DNA of 30,015 nt from a virus, in IMG/VR virus record IMGVR_UViG_3300045051_001305, positions 1 to 30,015 of that record; one strand, written 5' to 3'. Of this stretch, positions 5,997-21,137 are shown piece after piece. A model generated the notes under the pieces. It searched no databases, was not told where the DNA came from, and worked only from the letters and a program-made list of their open reading frames with translations. The translations under genes and the position numbers were made by a program. How positions within the stretch are numbered: the stretch's first letter is position 1; each line of letters opens with the position of its first letter.

Positions 5997-6338
5997 TCAT
6001 ACTCCTTGATTTATATCTGTTATATCGAGTTCATCCCCACGTAAAGTCCCACCGAACGATTCCTGCATCCATTTTAAAGTAACAGCCCGTATCGCTCTAT
6101 CAATTCCAGCGATTGATATATTAAATTTTTCTCCGGTAACAGGATCCTGAATATTTGCACACTCTAATGCCACATCTGTTAATTTCCTGTGTACCTGATG
6201 GTATCGATCAATCACTTGAAGATCTCGCTCGCTATCATCACGCACCACTTTTTGTAAATACAGATGGATGAATGGTGCCGACAAATTTGTCGGAACATCA
6301 ATCACTATTTGTTGCGTGCGTAAAATTGTTTTACTCAT
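5997..6338 (-). CDS. Hypothetical tail-region protein, 113 aa
   Basis: I place the start at ATG 6338, which overlaps the stop of the 758-aa fibre gene by eight bases and has GAAGAAA just upstream. A longer reading frame upstream lies wholly inside the fibre gene and lacks a binding site. The product has a beta-type N-terminus (TQQIVIDVPTNLSAPFIHLY) and a mostly helical body with several charged residues. No family is recognised. It sits between two structural genes, so a small tail appendage or assembly protein is the likely role. Confidence 0.6.
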   Translation of the reverse strand: MSKTILRTQQIVIDVPTNLSAPFIHLYLQKVVRDDSERDLQVIDRYHQVHRKLTDVALECANIQDPVTGEKFNISIAGIDRAIRAVTLKWMQESFGGTLRGDELDITDINQGV

Positions 6339-8607
6339 TTTCTTCAACTTCCAGTCCGATAAAAACTGTTTGGTTTTCGGGTAAAAGAGTAAACGGTATA
6401 ACCTGCTCAACATACCCTGACTTTATTATTTGTATGTACACCTGATTTTCAACGCCGTAATGGATGTGCTGGAATGTTGCGTAGCCATTATTGTTGGACT
6501 CGGCGATCTCATCACCCATATCACCCGGGATTACTCCGTTGCGATCGTAGATGCTGATCTGTGCACCAACCAAATCGTTTCCGTTTTGACTTGCCAGTGT
6601 TAGAGTATATGTGTCAATAGGGTATTTATAGTTGATGTAGTCAACCGACGTCGTAAAATTTAGCAAATTCAAATAATCTGCGGCCGATTGACGCGTGTGC
6701 GTAATACGAATTTTGAGCGGAAAACCAGCGGACGGACTGACCGTTTCTGCCTGCATATTAGTTTCGGTTACAGCCGCCCAAGTGTTGCCGTTATCGAGCG
6801 AATACTCAACTGTAAAATATTGCGTGTTTGCCCCGTCGAGAGTTAAAACCCCAAGTAAACCTGTAACGCCAATAATGCGATGGGGCCAGGTGTAAACTAT
6901 CGAATCACCGGATGCACCTGGCATGTACATTGCTCCGGCCATATTAAAAGCAACAGTGCCGGATTTCGTTATATATTGGTAATCGCTCGTGTACGCTGTG
7001 AATAATAAGCCAATTAAGCCGCTGTTTGTAGCTACCCTCACTTCGTAAAAATGAGTATTCTGTGTCCAGCCAGGGTTTGTAGGTATCCCTGTAGGAGACA
7101 CGTCAACAGCTTTAAAAATGACATTTGCAGGGGTATATCCTGCCCCCCTGAATAATGGAAGTGTAAAACTATTAGATCTGACATTTTGTAGGACGATATT
7201 AGATTTAGAACCAGACCATAAAATATGATATGTTGACACGCTTCCTATGTACGCATCTTTGATAATTAAACCATCCACTGGTATACTACAAAATTGAGTA
7301 CCGATTGCTGCAATTGACGACTGATATATTTCACTAAAACCAGTAATAAGGTTTGCTATACTACTGTCGGACAAATGACCATCCGCAATAGCATATATAT
7401 TAATTAAGGTAGCGCCAACGTCTCCGGCATTATTGATAAATGATGTGTAATAATTTCCGTACAAATCGGCATGCGGCGAATCCGATATGCCTATATTTCT
7501 AAAAACTATGTTTTTACTCGTATCGATGTAGACCCTACAACCCACGATAAAACTGTCACTTATCTCAACACTACTACATGTGTTTAAATTGAGGGAGGCA
7601 TCATTGACACTATCTCGTTTTAACACAAAACATCTGGGGTTTTTTACTTGTCCGTCAAAAAGGTTCTGAAGATATAGGCTATAGGTACTGATTGAAGTAG
7701 TTATAATATTCTCAATCGTAAGATTCGGTATGACGTTAAAAGTCGCAGATGATGCTGTCGTATTTGAAGCATTTGCGCAAACGGTCAGATTCTTTATTTC
7801 CGCGTCACCGGCAAACGTTACATTTACGGGGATGTATGCCGCAACACCATCCGTTTTTAAAGCTTTTACATTGTTAACATTTAGAAAGTATCCAGACAGG
7901 TATAACCCAGACAAATCTATGTCGCCACCTGGGGAAAAGTCAGCCTCATAATTGTCAGCAGCAGTTGCATAATTTTGTATTGTTGTTGCGTTACTTTTAG
8001 TTCCCCATAGTGTGCTATACACACGCACACGTGCACCCATGGGCACTACATTGCCGCCATGCCCTGCCGTACCCGCCCCTCCATCACCAAAAGTTATTAC
8101 ACCAGTAGTATTATTATATTTAAACCAGTTTCCGAGTTCACCCACCCCCACGTCGCTAAATAAAAGTGTGTCAATATTTACAAATCTGGTATAGGTATTA
8201 GTGCCATTTCCTGTTTCAACTTGCACTTCAGCGGGAATATCCAGTGGGTCGAATCCAGCAGCTGTCCAACCACTAGTAGTTTGCGACGCGCTACCGTCCC
8301 CTGTATATATAGTTAAGAAATGCTTTTTTACCGTTAATTTAGAACCGTTTCTTGCTTGCATTGTTTGCTGGGCAGGCCCATAATGGCGTAGTGCAGATGT
8401 CCCGTTATTGTCATATACTACTTCACCAAAACCAGATGTAGATATTACTCTAATACCAAGGTCAACATTAGTGGGTGTATACTGTATCGGATCTACAGTG
8501 AGTACAGCACCACTATTAACTGTAATACTATCTCCAAATACGAGGCCAGCCCAGTTATATTCCGGCCCACCCCAATAACAGTTTTGCGTCACAGTTATTG
8601 ATGCCAT
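6331..8607 (-). CDS. Tail fibre or spike-like protein with parallel beta-helix body, 758 aa
   Basis: The protein starts MASITVTQNCYWGGPEYNW and continues with many short strands rich in N, S, T, V and I, such as LTIENIITTSISTYSLYLQN and DSFIVGCRVYIDTSKNIVF. These are typical of right-handed beta-helix spikes. Near residues 560-665 there is a discoidin-like stretch ending in KIRITHTR. The last 90 residues (YTLTLASQNGNDLVGAQISI onward) look like a carboxypeptidase-regulatory Ig-like fold. No catalytic residues for a depolymerase can be pointed out. It probably binds the host surface. It follows the small membrane protein gene directly and is coupled to the 113-aa gene after it. Confidence 0.7.
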   Translation of the reverse strand: MASITVTQNCYWGGPEYNWAGLVFGDSITVNSGAVLTVDPIQYTPTNVDLGIRVISTSGFGEVVYDNNGTSALRHYGPAQQTMQARNGSKLTVKKHFLTIYTGDGSASQTTSGWTAAGFDPLDIPAEVQVETGNGTNTYTRFVNIDTLLFSDVGVGELGNWFKYNNTTGVITFGDGGAGTAGHGGNVVPMGARVRVYSTLWGTKSNATTIQNYATAADNYEADFSPGGDIDLSGLYLSGYFLNVNNVKALKTDGVAAYIPVNVTFAGDAEIKNLTVCANASNTTASSATFNVIPNLTIENIITTSISTYSLYLQNLFDGQVKNPRCFVLKRDSVNDASLNLNTCSSVEISDSFIVGCRVYIDTSKNIVFRNIGISDSPHADLYGNYYTSFINNAGDVGATLINIYAIADGHLSDSSIANLITGFSEIYQSSIAAIGTQFCSIPVDGLIIKDAYIGSVSTYHILWSGSKSNIVLQNVRSNSFTLPLFRGAGYTPANVIFKAVDVSPTGIPTNPGWTQNTHFYEVRVATNSGLIGLLFTAYTSDYQYITKSGTVAFNMAGAMYMPGASGDSIVYTWPHRIIGVTGLLGVLTLDGANTQYFTVEYSLDNGNTWAAVTETNMQAETVSPSAGFPLKIRITHTRQSAADYLNLLNFTTSVDYINYKYPIDTYTLTLASQNGNDLVGAQISIYDRNGVIPGDMGDEIAESNNNGYATFQHIHYGVENQVYIQIIKSGYVEQVIPFTLLPENQTVFIGLEVEENE

Positions 8608-12259: not shown

Positions 12260-12265
12260 ATTATA
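12260..12265 (-). promoter_or_regulatory. Possible -10 box (TATAAT) upstream of the 166-aa gene
   Basis: A perfect TATAAT on the - strand overlaps the stop codon of the long fibre gene. No good TTGACA-like -35 is found at 16-18 bp, so this is at best a weak or activator-dependent promoter and may be chance in an AT-rich gap. It would read into the 166-aa gene and gp46-gp48. Confidence 0.25.
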
Positions 12266-15200
12266 GGCTATTGTATATGTATGTTACGCAAAAACCTATA
12301 ACGCCATTACTACCTGCAGGAAATGATGCCCCTCCAGCAGGTCTTATGGTAAAGTACGTGTTGTTGCTTTCCATATCTAAATACCCATACGTACTTGCAC
12401 CGTTAAGCCAAATCTCTATCAGAAAAGTACGCGATGTCGAGGGCACCAAATCAGAGGGTATTCCCCTGATTGACATCGCCCCGCTTACAGTAGTTATGGC
12501 AGAGAAACCTGGGCAGCTAAAGGTAATCAAATTTCCCTGTCTGGCAGCAACTGCCTGACAAGAGTTATAGTCTGTAGACCCTACCCTTAATGTGACAGTA
12601 AAACCCGTTGTGGTCATGTGAGAATGATTACCCTCACTTACCGTTCCAGCTGATGTACCAAAGTTTTTGTTAAACGCCGTATTTTTTGTAAATGCAGGTT
12701 CGTATTGTGCGTGGGGGTTTCCTGTTGACCCGTGGTTTCCGGTATGTAAAACATTGTATAGCGTAGCACTCAAATGATCTCTAACAGCTAAATTCATTCC
12801 TCCAGTATAAACTAATGACATAGCATCCTGCCCGGCTCTATGGAATCCAATCAATGGGTATCTTCCAGGTGTATTTATGTCATATGTTGTTCGAAGTTCT
12901 AAATTGCCAGCATTGTATCCAGTACTTCCAGATTCGTAATGTGCTAACAACCGCCCCGCAGACACATTCCCTGCTGTATCGATTGTAACACGATCAACGC
13001 CGTTATAATTAAAAACAAAATTATAGTTTAATGCAGCAGGAGAACGCCATAAACCCCACTGGCCAACTCCAGTACCTGAATCTCCCGCAACGGCACCAAA
13101 CATTATCGTAGAGTACCCGCCATCACTTGCATACATACGGATATTCTCATTATAATTAATGCCACCGATGAACTTTACTCTTGCATTTACAAAATTTACT
13201 GTGCCATTTACATCCAAAGTGTATGCTGGTGCAATATTATTTATTCCAGTAAACCCTGTATCAGTAATGCGTAGGCGACTGGTAAAGGTTTGAACTGCTC
13301 CTGCTGCGACACTTGAGGCATTCATAAAATCAATATGACCCTGACCTAAATTAATCAATGAAGCGTTGCCCGTTCCTATTGCTCTGCTATTAGCCCCATC
13401 ATAATAGGTGTTCTGTTGAATTCCTATATGACCGTAACATGTTCCACCAGTAAATCCCATATCATTAGATGTTCCATAAACAGCTCCATAACCTCTCAAA
13501 TCAAGAAATGAATAATTGGAATGCCATGCATAAGCGGCCGCAGAGTTCATACGTATATTGCCAGACATGTCAACCTTGAATCTAACAACATGACTGTGTA
13601 ATGCACCAGCAACAGCACTTCCTGCTACATTAAATTCTAATCCGGTATCAGCAAAGCTAAGTATTGAACCCACACCGTCATACATTGCATGCCAACCACT
13701 ATCAGTACTATAATAGCTATTATGTGATAGCCACATGCTGCCGTAATTCGAAGGAAGACCCGCAACTTGACCCATTATTACCGCAGAATTACCAATACGT
13801 ATAGTGCGATAATTAGTATTTGTAGTCATATGTGCAGCAGACAATGTTAAATTACGCCCAATGGAAGCATCTCCAACATTATTAATTGCAAACATATCAA
13901 CAAGTGTGGAACCATTGCAATACGCTGTGTGCCAATAAAAATTATTAGCATCATTTGATGGGACGGTTACACCCGTTTCCCACCATGTTGAGCCGTTTAC
14001 AGCAGCAGCATAGCGTACGCCCGAATATCCTGTTTGATTCCCGGCTTTATTATCTGATCGATAACCCACGTGCGGGTTGTCGATCATTACTATGGCAACA
14101 CTACCATCCCCAGATAAAGTTGGGTAATTAAAGCCATTTCCCCAAGAATTCTTAAGGGATAAAACACCAATACCGTTTGGTATACCAAGATTATCTGCGC
14201 TTTGTCCGAAATAAATGCCCTTGCCAATCCTCACTTGTTTGTTGTTATAATGATTGATGTATACATCAAATCCATTTTTGCTATCAATGTGCAAATTTCC
14301 ATTACTTACTTGCATCCTTGCCGATGTAAAATCAGTAGAGGTCCATCCACCAATTTTTAAATATTCTCCATATGTAGCATTAGGCCCAATAGTGAAAGAA
14401 GACGTATTCCCTGAATTTATTCCTGTTTGTATCTCATACCGATTAATTGACACCGATTTTATATCATCAACATAATAATCAAATCGTCCATTATGTGCAA
14501 CATCTGATGCATGGAATTGCATATCGTAATCAGGGCCAGTACTGATACCCCATATATTACCAGCACCATCATTCCAAAATTCTATAATACATTTATCTTT
14601 GGTGTATCCATTACTGCACGTTAAGTCAAATGATAATTTTGTGGGTGTGGCAGACTGCGTGGGAGTTGATACAGTTCCAAGTTTTACACCATTAGGAATA
14701 TTTTGTAATAAAGAATTATTAAGTGTTTCATTAATAGTGTAATATGGAATGAAATTCTGAGTTAATCCACCAAACACAGATGATAGTTTAGCATAGACTG
14801 TACTATGGTCATGATCACTTCTAGCAATTGTTGTAGCAGAACCTGTTCCATCAAAAGTATACTTAGTAAAAGTATCATTCCCAGTTTGATAAATAAATCC
14901 TACATTGGAATTTAATCCTGCTAATGCAGTCAATGTATTATCAGCAGGTTGAGCACCAACATCAGTATAAGTCAACCCATGCGCAGTAAACCCGAACTCT
15001 GTGGCAGAAATAGCTTTGAGGAAATGTCCCGTCGTTAAACCGGATACCGTATGCGTCGCACTTACCAAACCGTGAGCTGTTGGTGCCCTGGTATCGCTCA
15101 ATCTGCTATCATTTCCTTGACACGCCGTCCCCGCTGTGGTACCATATGCAACAGCTGCTGTCACCGCAGCAGCGCCATTATAAGAGGTCCCTGTTAACCC

Positions 15201-15971
15201 AGTACCCAGAGTTAATTCATAGGGATTTGGAAGGCTCGTTGGCATAGTGGCTAACGACATATCACCGCGAAAATACTGGGCCGTTGTTCCCTTTGTAATG
15301 GCAGGTTCATACTCTCCATCATGGTCGTGATCGAGTCGCGAATAAAGTAAATCTCCAACAGCGACTAACGCAGTTGCAAAATCGCTAATTGTACTTGCAG
15401 TTTGCGTTCCGCTATGCGTTGATCGATCTCTATCCGAAGCATGGTAATGAAGGGTAGTATTTCCACCGTCCATGAGATCAACTGCTTGAGCATATGTTAA
15501 ATGGTAATAGTTATTACTGTTTAAATTTTCTAAAAGAGCATGATCAGTGATCCCAGCAGCTAAGCGGTCAAGCCATGTACTCCCATTGTAAAAGTTAAAT
15601 TTATCAGTATTTTTATCCCAAACTTCATACCCTTCTACGGGAATTGTCTCGGTCCACTGCGTCCCATCCCACTCATATAACCTATGCTGAATCCACCCAT
15701 TTCCGTTGGCAGTAGCCACATATCTGTCAAAGAGAACTGGATTTGCCGGTAAACCATTTGTTGGGTTAAAAAAAGCATTGACCGTCTCTATGCCACTAAT
15801 ACCATCATACATCCGGTCAACAATCGAATCGATCAGTGGGGTCATCTTTTGCAGTGGTGAATTCAAGTTGTAACCAACCCACAACTGGCCAGATATGGTC
15901 CTTGTAGGGTTATCCGGATCTTGGTTCAGATCATCCCGTATTCCTTGCTTAACTTCTTCTTTAGTTGCCAT
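12261..15971 (-). CDS. Long tail fibre protein, 1236 aa
   Basis: I place the start at ATG 15971, which overlaps the gp45 stop as TAATG; an upstream ATG would run into gp45. The N-terminus (about 1-70, KEEVKQGIRDDL, LQKMTPLIDSIV) is helical and probably attaches to the baseplate. A DUF2793-like segment follows (about 85-145, RLYEWDGTQWTET). Then come shaft motifs with His pairs (LHYHASDRDRSTHSG, SRLDHDHDGEYEP, ARSDHDHSTVY). The middle is long, strand-rich and asparagine/glycine-rich, with a YTLDVNGTVNF spike motif. The C-terminal 140 residues (TGNHGSTGNPHAQYEPAF onward) end in a compact tip domain. No S74 chaperone signature is seen. Its place between gp45 and gp46 is unusual. Confidence 0.8.
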   Translation of the reverse strand: MATKEEVKQGIRDDLNQDPDNPTRTISGQLWVGYNLNSPLQKMTPLIDSIVDRMYDGISGIETVNAFFNPTNGLPANPVLFDRYVATANGNGWIQHRLYEWDGTQWTETIPVEGYEVWDKNTDKFNFYNGSTWLDRLAAGITDHALLENLNSNNYYHLTYAQAVDLMDGGNTTLHYHASDRDRSTHSGTQTASTISDFATALVAVGDLLYSRLDHDHDGEYEPAITKGTTAQYFRGDMSLATMPTSLPNPYELTLGTGLTGTSYNGAAAVTAAVAYGTTAGTACQGNDSRLSDTRAPTAHGLVSATHTVSGLTTGHFLKAISATEFGFTAHGLTYTDVGAQPADNTLTALAGLNSNVGFIYQTGNDTFTKYTFDGTGSATTIARSDHDHSTVYAKLSSVFGGLTQNFIPYYTINETLNNSLLQNIPNGVKLGTVSTPTQSATPTKLSFDLTCSNGYTKDKCIIEFWNDGAGNIWGISTGPDYDMQFHASDVAHNGRFDYYVDDIKSVSINRYEIQTGINSGNTSSFTIGPNATYGEYLKIGGWTSTDFTSARMQVSNGNLHIDSKNGFDVYINHYNNKQVRIGKGIYFGQSADNLGIPNGIGVLSLKNSWGNGFNYPTLSGDGSVAIVMIDNPHVGYRSDNKAGNQTGYSGVRYAAAVNGSTWWETGVTVPSNDANNFYWHTAYCNGSTLVDMFAINNVGDASIGRNLTLSAAHMTTNTNYRTIRIGNSAVIMGQVAGLPSNYGSMWLSHNSYYSTDSGWHAMYDGVGSILSFADTGLEFNVAGSAVAGALHSHVVRFKVDMSGNIRMNSAAAYAWHSNYSFLDLRGYGAVYGTSNDMGFTGGTCYGHIGIQQNTYYDGANSRAIGTGNASLINLGQGHIDFMNASSVAAGAVQTFTSRLRITDTGFTGINNIAPAYTLDVNGTVNFVNARVKFIGGINYNENIRMYASDGGYSTIMFGAVAGDSGTGVGQWGLWRSPAALNYNFVFNYNGVDRVTIDTAGNVSAGRLLAHYESGSTGYNAGNLELRTTYDINTPGRYPLIGFHRAGQDAMSLVYTGGMNLAVRDHLSATLYNVLHTGNHGSTGNPHAQYEPAFTKNTAFNKNFGTSAGTVSEGNHSHMTTTGFTVTLRVGSTDYNSCQAVAARQGNLITFSCPGFSAITTVSGAMSIRGIPSDLVPSTSRTFLIEIWLNGASTYGYLDMESNNTYFTIRPAGGASFPAGSNGVIGFCVTYIYNSL

Positions 15972-16624
15972 TATGCAATTTTCGCTTTTACGGTTTGAGA
16001 TCCCATAGCATGCATTCCACCAGTAATGCATGCGCACATCGTCGTAACTACTCCGCCACCAGCATTGGCAAGTGGTTCATTCCCGAGGAAAATATTTGTT
16101 GCATTAACAATAACTTTTCCACCGGCGCCATTGGCATTTATTTCAACACTCGATGCAGCACCAGTAGCATTTATCTTAACATTACCCGCAGCGCCTCCTG
16201 CGTTAATAGTAACATTACCCCCAGTCTCGCTTGTTGCATTGATTTCGATATCATTTCTTGCCTCGACAATTATCTTGTTGTCTGTAGGGCTCAGATGCAC
16301 TTTGTTGCCATTTCTGTCGTATAACGCAACATCAGCCTCATTAGGCAGCTTTATTCGATATTCTCGGTGTTCACAGCTTATTACAATACCATTATCTCTG
16401 TTACCCCCAACAAATGCAGCAACAGCCTCTGAACCAACAGGAGGCCTGCTCGTAAAACCGTACTCCTGGTGTCGTGGGAGCTCGTCAACTTCTCCATCAA
16501 AAAGTGTCACCTGTACGGTTTGAAGCCCTTTTGCATCATTGACCATAGTAACAACAGCGCGACTTAAAATTAACATTATTCGTCGCTGTAATGGAGCTAT
16601 GATTTTTTTAATTGCGTCAATCAT
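15971..16624 (-). CDS. Baseplate spike protein, Mu gp45-like
   Basis: The 217-aa protein forms the trimeric membrane-piercing spike at the tail tip. The N-terminal OB-fold region fits the Mu gp45 family (RRIMLILSRAVVTMVNDAKG, then TVQVTLFDGEVDELPRHQEY, then GSEAVAAFVGGNRDNGIV). From about residue 120 a beta-helix begins, with four 11-residue repeats at 135-178. The tip segment is CACITGGMHAMGS, where many spikes have a metal-binding His-x-His; here only one His (205) is seen with Met two residues later. It follows gpP after a 3-base gap and is coupled to the long fibre gene. Confidence 0.88.
   Translation of the reverse strand: MIDAIKKIIAPLQRRIMLILSRAVVTMVNDAKGLQTVQVTLFDGEVDELPRHQEYGFTSRPPVGSEAVAAFVGGNRDNGIVISCEHREYRIKLPNEADVALYDRNGNKVHLSPTDNKIIVEARNDIEINATSETGGNVTINAGGAAGNVKINATGAASSVEINANGAGGKVIVNATNIFLGNEPLANAGGGVVTTMCACITGGMHAMGSQTVKAKIA
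16091..16222 (-). repeat. Four tandem 33-bp coding repeats in the spike gene
   Basis: Codons 135-178 consist of four 11-residue units: GGNVTINAGGA, AGNVKINATGA, ASSVEINANGA, GGKVIVNATNI. Each unit would be one strand pair of the triangular beta-helix needle. Copy number changes here would lengthen or shorten the spike in steps. Confidence 0.8.
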
Positions 16625-18851: not shown

Positions 18852-20719
18852 AATGATACCGCCTGGTAACCCATACTTAGATCAACGTTTTTCAATGAAC
18901 CAGAAGTGGATACTTTTGTGCCTTGCGGCAATCCAGCAATTTCCACCTTTACCTTTTGCTCGCTTTTAGAAATTTCTGTTTTTCGTGATTCTCTGATGCT
19001 TTCTTTAAGAGCCATTCCAGCAGGAGCGCCACTTGGGGTGCCGAAGAAAGCGGTACCATCATCATTACCTAATAACCACTTGAGCGATTTGCCTGCCACA
19101 GAACCAGCACTTTTATCAAGCTGGTCAAGAGGTCCCTTTAATCCATTATCAACACCGCCCAGCCACGAACCAACTTTTCCAAAAAAGCTATACACTGGAG
19201 ACTTTACAAACCAATCAGAGAATGCTGCAACGGTCTTTTTGATAGAATCAAATCCGTTAGAAAAAGCATCCTTAATTTTGTCCCAATTTTTTATTAAAAG
19301 TGTTGGAAGTGCTGTGAATATATTGGAATATAGAACTATCGTTCCTATTCGTGAATTGAATAACTTTGTAAGAAAGTCCCATACCCCAACAAAGAAACCC
19401 TTAATTGCGTTCCACTTAACAACAATTAGTGTAACCGCTGCCCCGACAAGCGCAATCCCCCCAACGATAGCAGCCACCCAGCCAACGACGGGGAGACTGG
19501 CCGCTACGAATATAGCGGCTATACTACTGATACCTACTATTACAGGACCTGCAAGTGCAACAAGGCCTGCAAACGCAGCTGTAACACTAAGTATTGTAGG
19601 GTCAAGATTTATAAGCCAATTTAAAAGAGGGGTACCAATACGTATAACAGCATCAATTGCTGGAGCTAATGCATCACCCAACTTTTGACCAAACACAGTT
19701 AATCTTTGCAGTGCCTGACTTAATGCAAAACCAGTTTTATTGATTCCCTCTGTTTGTTGTCTAAAAGCGCGATCGGCAGCACCGGCAACCGCTGTATCCG
19801 ACATTCCTTTTAGTATGGAGTCAAATTTCTTTACACCATCACCAGTAAATTGCATTGCAAACAACATGGCTTCACTGCGGCCTAAAAACTTCTGTAAAGG
19901 CACGTCCGCCAATGTTGATAATTCGGTAATTTTTTGTAATGTTGGGATAACTCCTCCCAAACCTTTTATCATCTCCGGACCAGATTTGTACCCGAGATAA
20001 TCCATAAGTTGAGTTAGTTCCTTTGATGGATTTAATATTTCTTTTAATGCGCTTGCAAACTGAGTGGATGAAACCGAAGTACTATTTGTAATTAATGTAC
20101 TGTATGCCATTGCAGCAAACATCTCATTCAAACTTACTCCCAGTTGTTTACTGGGAAGTGTGACGTTGCTTATTGATGCAGCAAGCTCTGGGAATGTAGT
20201 CTTTCCAAGGTTTGAGGTTTGAAAAGCAAAGTCGGCAGCTGTCTGAACAGCTTTCGCTGAGGTATCCCCCCACACCTGTGTAACTGATGAAGTCAAATTA
20301 ATTGCATCAGAGACAGTAGCTAAACCCGCAACAGCAGCTTTGGTATTGATACCTAAAAGCTTAGTAGTTTCTGCAGAATCCTGAAAGGTGCTAACTGTTT
20401 GATACAAGCCTTCAGCAACATCCTTAGAACTTTTACCCGCCTCGATTGCAAGATCTTGCACCGGTGATTTAAGTTCGTTAATTCTGCTGATGTTATCAGG
20501 TATCAGTGTCGCTACATTCGCCATAGCGGAATTTAACTCTGTGGAAAAAGCAGTGCTGGCAATACCCAGGCCCAATATAGGTAGCGATAAGCCTACAGTT
20601 AATGCATTTCCAACGCTTTTTGCTTTCTTGCCAAGAAAGTCAATATCTTTAATGGCACCATTAAACGTACTACCGTACTGATTAACACCAGCGAGTATTA
20701 TTTTTATCGGTTGAATCAT
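18848..20719 (-). CDS. Tail tape measure protein, 623 aa
   Basis: The long helical protein sets tail length and is ejected ahead of DNA. The TP901-type region is visible: ELNSAMANVATLIPD (61-75), VAEGLYQTVSTFQDS (101-115), LATVSDAINLTSS and LKEILNPSKELTQLMDYLGY. A strongly hydrophobic block lies at about 374-435 (GLVALAGPVIVGISSIAAIF, GWVAAIVGGIALVG), typical for membrane passage. At roughly 1.5 A per residue the tail would be about 90 nm; this is a rule of thumb. The ATG overlaps the stop of the frameshifted chaperone (ATGA). Confidence 0.93.
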   Translation of the reverse strand: MIQPIKIILAGVNQYGSTFNGAIKDIDFLGKKAKSVGNALTVGLSLPILGLGIASTAFSTELNSAMANVATLIPDNISRINELKSPVQDLAIEAGKSSKDVAEGLYQTVSTFQDSAETTKLLGINTKAAVAGLATVSDAINLTSSVTQVWGDTSAKAVQTAADFAFQTSNLGKTTFPELAASISNVTLPSKQLGVSLNEMFAAMAYSTLITNSTSVSSTQFASALKEILNPSKELTQLMDYLGYKSGPEMIKGLGGVIPTLQKITELSTLADVPLQKFLGRSEAMLFAMQFTGDGVKKFDSILKGMSDTAVAGAADRAFRQQTEGINKTGFALSQALQRLTVFGQKLGDALAPAIDAVIRIGTPLLNWLINLDPTILSVTAAFAGLVALAGPVIVGISSIAAIFVAASLPVVGWVAAIVGGIALVGAAVTLIVVKWNAIKGFFVGVWDFLTKLFNSRIGTIVLYSNIFTALPTLLIKNWDKIKDAFSNGFDSIKKTVAAFSDWFVKSPVYSFFGKVGSWLGGVDNGLKGPLDQLDKSAGSVAGKSLKWLLGNDDGTAFFGTPSGAPAGMALKESIRESRKTEISKSEQKVKVEIAGLPQGTKVSTSGSLKNVDLSMGYQAVSF

Positions 20720-21137
20720 TTTTTGTTTATCTCCGCTGCAACAATTTCTGCCCGTCTCGACCAGGCTCTCAGGTTATCACTATCCATTTCGCTTAATTCT
20801 GACGGCTGAAAATGGAAAAAATAGGCTAAATAGCCTATTAATTCGTCCCAGTTTCCTGGGACTTCGGCAAAAAATACGCCATCACCTTGTTAGCTTCCTG
20901 AAAATCAACAGGATCCATCTCCGAAATAACAGCTGAAACTACTCCTGTTAATCTGGATAAGATCTTCGCGGATCTGTCAATATTCGATAAACTATCAGGA
21001 ATACCCTCAAGATCTTTTACCTTCGGTTTTCTTGTAAAAGTAATCGACGTTATTGGGTTTTCAGTAATCCCAACAATTGCTTCTTTCAGAGTAACAGTAT
21101 GCGGTATGGTGTATGTAGTTTCTTTATTGGTAGACAT
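20716..21137 (-). CDS. Tail assembly chaperone, -1 frameshift product (Mu gp41/gp42, P2 E+E' type)
   Basis: Ribosomes that slip at T TTT TTG (20868-20874) after codon 90 read on in the -1 frame for 50 more residues, giving about 140 aa. The added tail includes NWDELIGYLAYFFHFQPSEL and then WSRRAEIVAAEI. This matches the P2 GpE'-type C-terminal domain (an aromatic F-H-x-x-PSEL motif followed by L..W..RA), although no separate start codon or binding site exists for it. Its stop overlaps the tape measure start. The extension should bind the tape measure while the shared N-terminus binds tube protein during tail assembly. Confidence 0.88.
20820..20839 (-). other. Second hairpin behind the frameshift stem-loop
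   Basis: AATAGGCT and AGCCTATT form a perfect 8-bp stem around a 4-nt loop, five bases after the first stem. On the - strand it is followed by a T-run, so it looks like a weak intrinsic terminator inside the frameshifted reading frame. It could tune frameshifting or lower tape measure transcription; either role is inferred. Confidence 0.5.
20838..21137 (-). CDS. Tail assembly chaperone, unshifted product (Mu gp41-like)
   Basis: The 99-aa product of normal decoding fits the Phage_TAC family of Mu-type phages: YTIPHTVTLKEAIVGITENP, then ITFTRKPKVKDLEGIPDSLS, then LSRLTGVVSAVISEMDPVDF and ANKVMAYF. AAGGAGG precedes the ATG by six bases, among the strongest binding sites of the operon, which suits the large amount needed. 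It comes directly after the tube gene and before the tape measure gene. Confidence 0.9.
   Translation of the reverse strand: MSTNKETTYTIPHTVTLKEAIVGITENPITSITFTRKPKVKDLEGIPDSLSNIDRSAKILSRLTGVVSAVISEMDPVDFQEANKVMAYFLPKSQETGTN
20845..20874 (-). promoter_or_regulatory. -1 programmed frameshift signal: slippery heptamer plus stem-loop
   Basis: The heptamer T TTT TTG (20868-20874) is in the correct frame for tandem -1 slippage. After a 5-nt spacer (CCGAA) comes a perfect 7-bp stem, GTCCCAG/CTGGGAC, closed by a GAAA tetraloop (20845-20862). Slippage leads straight into the conserved E'-type domain, which gives strong functional support. Confidence 0.88.

Follow-up and report, generated by a model that had tools for sequence, protein, structure and literature searches.

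A likely P2-type programmed -1 frameshift in the tail chaperone gene of an uncultured contractile-tailed phage

Does the tail assembly chaperone gene of an uncultured phage end in a programmed ribosomal frameshift, and which of the RNA elements around its slippery site would take part? The stretch of DNA analysed here, referred to below as the window, is a 30,015-base virus record from a contractile-tailed phage, and the whole feature lies on its minus strand (Table 1). The genes on this strand are ordered portal (PF05136), S49 protease, capsid E, sheath, tube, chaperone, tape measure, and DNA circularisation protein. In a Pfam profile search, the chaperone open reading frame (ORF) matched Phage_TAC_7 with 31.3 bits against a cut-off of 25. 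Its placement between the tail tube (PF10618) and tape measure (PF10145) genes is that expected of a TAC ORF of the P2 E/E+E' type. At the window edge, positions 61-1275 of the plus strand hold a zinc-dependent alcohol dehydrogenase-like gene (PF08240, PF00107) that adjoins the phage lysis genes; since this gene resembles a bacterial flank, the record may be that of an integrated prophage, one end of which is close by. A D12-class N6 adenine DNA methyltransferase gene (PF02086; 1461-2258, minus strand) is located at the distal end of the phage genes, and two large proteins of 1258 and 758 aa, putatively tail fibres or tailspikes (12261-16037 and 6331-8607, minus strand), gave no Pfam match.

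Table 1. Features of the putative frameshift locus, in window coordinates
Feature	Position	Strand	Basis or remark
Tape measure ORF, 623 aa	18848..20719	-	PF10145 PhageMin_Tail 4e-15 and PHROG tape-measure families
-1-frame extension, 50 aa (AEVPGNWDELIGYLAYFFHFQPSEL...INKK)	20719..20868	-	Stop TGA 20718-20716
Stem-loop 2, AATAGGCT-ATTT-AGCCTATT, then TTTT	20820..20839	-	RNA fold; terminator-like; probably incidental
Tail assembly chaperone ORF, zero frame, 99 aa (short product)	20838..21137	-	Pfam PF10109 Phage_TAC_7
Stem-loop 1, GTCCCAG-GAAA-CTGGGAC	20845..20862	-	RNA fold; plausible 3' stimulator in the window's lineage
Spacer CCGAA, 5 nt	20863..20867	-	Sequence
Slippery heptamer T TTT TTG (-1 shift)	20868..20874	-	Canonical register
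Shine-Dalgarno (SD)-like AGGTGAT (within AAGGTGAT)	20881..20887	-	7-nt match to anti-SD complement; proposed 5' stimulator

The first-pass annotation had proposed a -1 shift in a Mu gp41/P2 E-type chaperone, and had described the heptamer, the 5-nt spacer, and a 7-bp stem with a GAAA loop at the end of a Mu gp41-like gene. All three elements were found on the minus strand, RNA folding agreed with the stem, and all close relatives as well as many distant ones retain the heptamer. The register, TA followed by T TTT TTG, fits tandem -1 slippage and places the site ten codons ahead of the chaperone TAA (20840-20838). Slippage by one base would give a 140-aa fusion with a 50-aa GpE-like tail. As the annotation had stated, this extension lacks a start of its own: the 50 codons are open, and a codon scan of the -1 ORF found no ATG, GTG, or TTG before extension residue 28, which is the first ATG. 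The TGA that closes the extension overlaps the tape measure ATG as ATGA. The suggested likeness to P2 E'-type proteins, by which the extension may belong to the GpE family, has in its favour the P2 GpE motif, FHFQPSEL...W, which is common to about 100 relatives, and a match to phrog_8286 (E 8e-6); PF06528 (Phage_P2_GpE) matched the extension alone with 19.4 bits (E 7e-4), under its cut-off of 23. The heptamer, its register, the open -1 frame, the protein families, and the conserved placement are all directly visible in the DNA, and the locus is very probably a programmed -1 ribosomal frameshift of the P2 E/E+E' type in a Mu/P2-type contractile-tail phage.

A homopolymer run sits at the junction, which speaks for transcriptional slippage at T6, in which a U is inserted into or deleted from the RNA instead of the ribosome slipping. 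This reading is very improbable: known bacterial cases involve about 9 A or T in a row (PMC5009743), and relatives of the window keep the heptamer in tRNA register, some of them with sites that are not homopolymers (G GGT TTT, A AAT TTT, G GGA AAC). We also weighed a -2 shift. Mu gp41 has the same place within a related order of sheath, tube, chaperone, and tape measure genes (Mu L and the window sheath share about 30% identity) and uses a verified -2 shift according to its record annotation, whereas the window has a -1 heptamer. The short 5-nt spacer next to a U6 run is in line with the finding that shorter spacers favour -2 on U6A (PMC7618472). However, the -2 frame after the heptamer encodes a short, unrelated peptide and closes, so that no Mu-type -2/+1 extension is present. 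The conserved GpE-like extension, which runs up to the tape measure start, is read in the -1 frame; we regard a -2 shift here as hardly credible.

The relatives of the locus allowed its geometry to be compared. There is a near-identical copy (L002/L015), and the closest independent relative, the L003/L016 group, consists of two contigs with 75% chaperone and 85% sheath identity; heptamer and spacer are kept in both. TTTTTTG itself is identical in L003/L004/L016, L091, and L093, and both P2 and Bordetella phage PBb002 have it as well, in the window's register. A tblastn search with the chaperone as query found no match among cultured phages, and a DNA-pattern search found two distant relatives. 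The T6 pattern, made up of T6, 9 free bases, CCN NNN RAY TGG, 30 bases, and TTY CAY, is blind to stem pairing and matched at least 120 viral stretches, nearly all of them chaperones with a zero-frame ORF and a -1 extension. Dropping sites that were at least 80% identical left 89 relatives among the matches listed. T6N ends 8 nt ahead of the Pro codon of a -1-frame P-x-[ND]-W in 89/89 of these, a distance set by the pattern. Since a match to the T6 pattern presupposes T6, [ND]-W, and FH, we took the frequencies of these elements solely from a scan in which T6 was left out of the pattern. Here, among the non-redundant matches listed, T6N stood at that distance in 44 of 67 sites and another canonical heptamer in 14, and none was recognised in the remaining 9 of 67. 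Chaperones without T6 at the usual place (within L208-L254) carry G GGT TTT, A AAT TTT, G GGA AAC, or C CCT TTG, and several lack a canonical heptamer though the -1-frame P-x-[ND]-W is kept.

We then turn to the structures downstream of the heptamer. RNA folding predicted exactly two hairpins, with -36.3 kcal/mol over 101 nt and a z score of -5.2; none of 200 dinucleotide shuffles was as stable, although this null takes no account of coding. When compared with synonymous codings that preserve the same -1-frame peptide at the phage's own codon usage, the hairpin pair reached -26.2 versus -11.8 +/- 2.6, and 0/10,000 codings were as stable, with the caveat that the hairpin p-values are optimistic because both stems were chosen after the fact.

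Stem 1 (arms 20862-20856 and 20851-20845) is a perfect 7-bp helix that begins 5 nt past the heptamer. Its codons, GTC CCA G/GA AA/C TGG GAC (slashes enclose the GAAA loop), read V-P-G-N-W-D in the -1 frame. CCA is the complement of TGG, and a Gly codon with an Asn or Asp codon after it invariably yields GNRA, so the P-G-N-W codons alone provide the stem core and the loop. The GNRA-capped stem, singled out at first as unusual, is in this respect ordinary, and 29% of synonymous codings form 7 pairs at stem 1. What does stand out is the version in the window, as only 0.4% of codings make all seven pairs Watson-Crick and 0.6% reach the local energy. The rarity of the all-Watson-Crick helix makes a local stimulatory role plausible in the window's lineage.

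Comparison with the closest independent relative gave a mixed picture. The L003/L016 group has ATCCCAG-GGAA-CTGGGAC, with 6/7 pairs and a GNRA loop whose A to G change is silent in Gly, the codons of the heptamer and of stem 1 otherwise being unchanged between the window and L016. Among same-residue codons, 6/7 are identical in the stem-1 segment, as opposed to 18/62 (0.29) upstream and 179/403 (0.44) in the sheath gene. This conservation can equally stem from the two overlapping frames, which end right past stem 1. Further away, the GC-rich L091 and L093 retain TTTTTTGCC and TCCC...GGGA, but their Pro codon, CCT, breaks the inner pair.

An alignment of related phages had been suggested as a check for stem covariation, and across the 89 relatives (among the matches listed) none above shuffles was detected for stem 1 outside the fixed Pro/Trp core in a fixed register; slid registers behaved alike. 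Only 3 of these 89 form 7 pairs at stem 1. The relatives listed also had no extra structure past the heptamer over the coding null (mean z -0.36, against an upstream background of -0.2 to -0.5), despite this region having the highest absolute stability of the positions tested. Relatives' codon usage is approximate, being drawn from six-frame long ORFs, and positional controls in the structure and anti-SD tests guard against the resulting bias. An Rfam search gave no match. Because the family lacks both covariation and structure above the coding null, stem 1 appears to be mostly dictated by the peptide, and the window's lineage may have sharpened it.

These data also bear on the view that both hairpins are pure by-products of coding and that the heptamer and the SD-like element alone drive the shift, as in P2-type phages that have no hairpin. 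P2, KS5, KS14, and KL3 have no predicted hairpins at the shift site (PMC3091744), which, together with the peptide origin of the CCA...TGG core and the family-wide nulls, speaks for such an explanation. The fully Watson-Crick stem 1, a combined stability beyond that of 10,000 codings, and the 6 pairs and GNRA loop retained in L016 speak against it. We consider this view quite possible, if a little short of an even chance.

The second 8-bp stem that had been noted, ending in a U-run, is likewise present and predicted by folding; GAATT (five bases) separates it from stem 1, and 2.4% of synonymous codings contain it as an 8-pair helix. It overlaps the codons of I-G-Y-L-A-Y, in which Gly GGC and Ala GCC of the conserved G-x-x-A are complementary, and the U-run on its 3' side comes from the Phe codons in FHF, a conserved motif. 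The first-pass annotation had suggested that this tandem hairpin could combine frameshift control with transcript attenuation, a proposal that found no backing in the relatives. In L003/L016 the stem reads GATTGGTT-ATTT-AGCGTATT with two internal mismatches, and between the window and L016 its codons have diverged like the rest of the gene. Terminator-like structures were not enriched in the extensions (6 observed versus 8.5 expected from synonymous chance). L116, an independent relative, makes the same 8 pairs from V-G-D-I-A-Y, with the same G-x-x-A codons in a sequence different from that of the window, which points to coding. We therefore rejected attenuation or termination by stem 2 as the main reading, based on the broken stem in L003/L016, the absent terminator enrichment, and the diverged codons. 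An attenuator or terminator that meters tape measure expression, and that ribosomes mask by reading on or by stopping at TAA, could still draw on the facts that stem 2 satisfies a simple terminator definition and that the zero-frame TAA lies at the stem foot. With just 3 G-C pairs in addition to the findings above, it is very improbable. Stem 2 is most likely an incidental by-product of the protein sequence.

Upstream of the heptamer, we identified an element that the first-pass annotation did not mention. AGGTGAT ends 6 nt ahead of the heptamer, and its GGAGG-aligned core lies 10 nt from it. Among the matches listed, 45 of 89 sites have an SD match of at least 5 nt within 29 nt ahead of the heptamer, compared with 25.9 expected synonymously, and the matches in the family cluster at spacings 7 and 10. 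In the relatives listed, anti-SD pairing 2-11 nt upstream averaged -6.4 kcal/mol versus -4.3 kcal/mol for synonymous codings, and the pairing energy leaves the null close to the heptamer only. None of 120 permuted anti-SD sequences gave a bigger difference, and pyrimidine-rich permutations also showed a smaller excess. Relative to the rest of the same genes, GAG was enriched at codon -5 (p 0.003) and GTG at -4 (9e-5) and -3 (2e-4). All of these family statistics are uncorrected for shared ancestry. AGGTGAT probably helps slippage, and the support is statistical only; if confirmed, the signal would be a 5' stimulator selected family-wide, unlike the downstream stem.

From the sequence we infer that slippage occurs, how efficient it would be, and what role either hairpin might have. 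Most ribosomes would end the 99-aa chaperone at TAA, and a smaller share, in which tRNA-Phe and tRNA-Leu occupy T TTT TTG, would slip one base back and make the 140-aa fusion, which carries a GpE-like domain at its C-terminus. If the analogy to lambda G/GT and P2 E/E+E' holds, the two products would jointly coat and recruit the tape measure. Slippage would probably be aided by the upstream AGGTGAT, whose core has a dnaX-like distance of about 10 nt, and in the window's lineage probably also by the hairpin 5 nt downstream.

Of the systems compared, P2 E/E+E' is built alike: it has the same heptamer and register, with T TTT TTG at the annotated frameshift and TTTTTTG named as the E+E' shift site (PMC3091744), a TAC gene directly ahead of the tape measure gene, and a GpE-like -1 extension that lacks its own start and whose stop overlaps the tape measure start. 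The downstream hairpin is clear in the window but reported absent in P2, the P-x-N-W that follows the shift in the window does not occur in that form in P2, and the TAC proteins are far diverged. Downstream structure is reported to be rare where phages frameshift and to be missing from P2-like phages (PMC3091744), so the hairpin of the window is a mild variation. The Mu-like Pseudomonas phage PaMx73 has a putative T TTT TTC -1 site in its tail assembly genes (PMC4378225), but it is a siphovirus with unrelated tail genes. Escherichia coli dnaX, with an internal SD 10 nt 5' of its shift site (PMC5009743), possibly shares a three-part layout of SD-like element, heptamer, and downstream hairpin. 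It differs in its heptamer, A AAA AAG, in a far higher efficiency, and in the gene concerned, and the role of the window's hairpin is putative.

The mechanism is already known; what is new is an unannotated family of uncultured phages that probably uses this known recoding. It is conceivable, though we hold it rather doubtful, that myophage tail chaperones in general share a dnaX-like three-part signal built into the protein code, namely a GAG-GTG-type SD-like element about 7-10 nt upstream, T6N fixed 8 nt from P-x-[ND]-W, and a CCA...TGG base of a stimulatory hairpin tuned per lineage by synonymous codons. The locus also illustrates a trap, in that the peptide encoded past a slippery site (here P-G-N-W) can impose a perfect GNRA-capped stem. 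The geometry of T6N, 8 nt, and P-x-[ND]-W offers a precise search pattern for tail chaperone fusions, which are usually missed. The nearest cultured relatives by sheath (37.6%), Bordetella phages vB_BbrM_PBb002 and PY223, have no stem in the window's register in their tail modules. In PBb002, TTTTTTG lies 8 nt before P-A-D-W in the chaperone gene (L008:6971-7360), followed by a GpE-like -1 extension (ARFPADW...FHWPPSEL); the record carries no frameshift annotation and lists the short product only.
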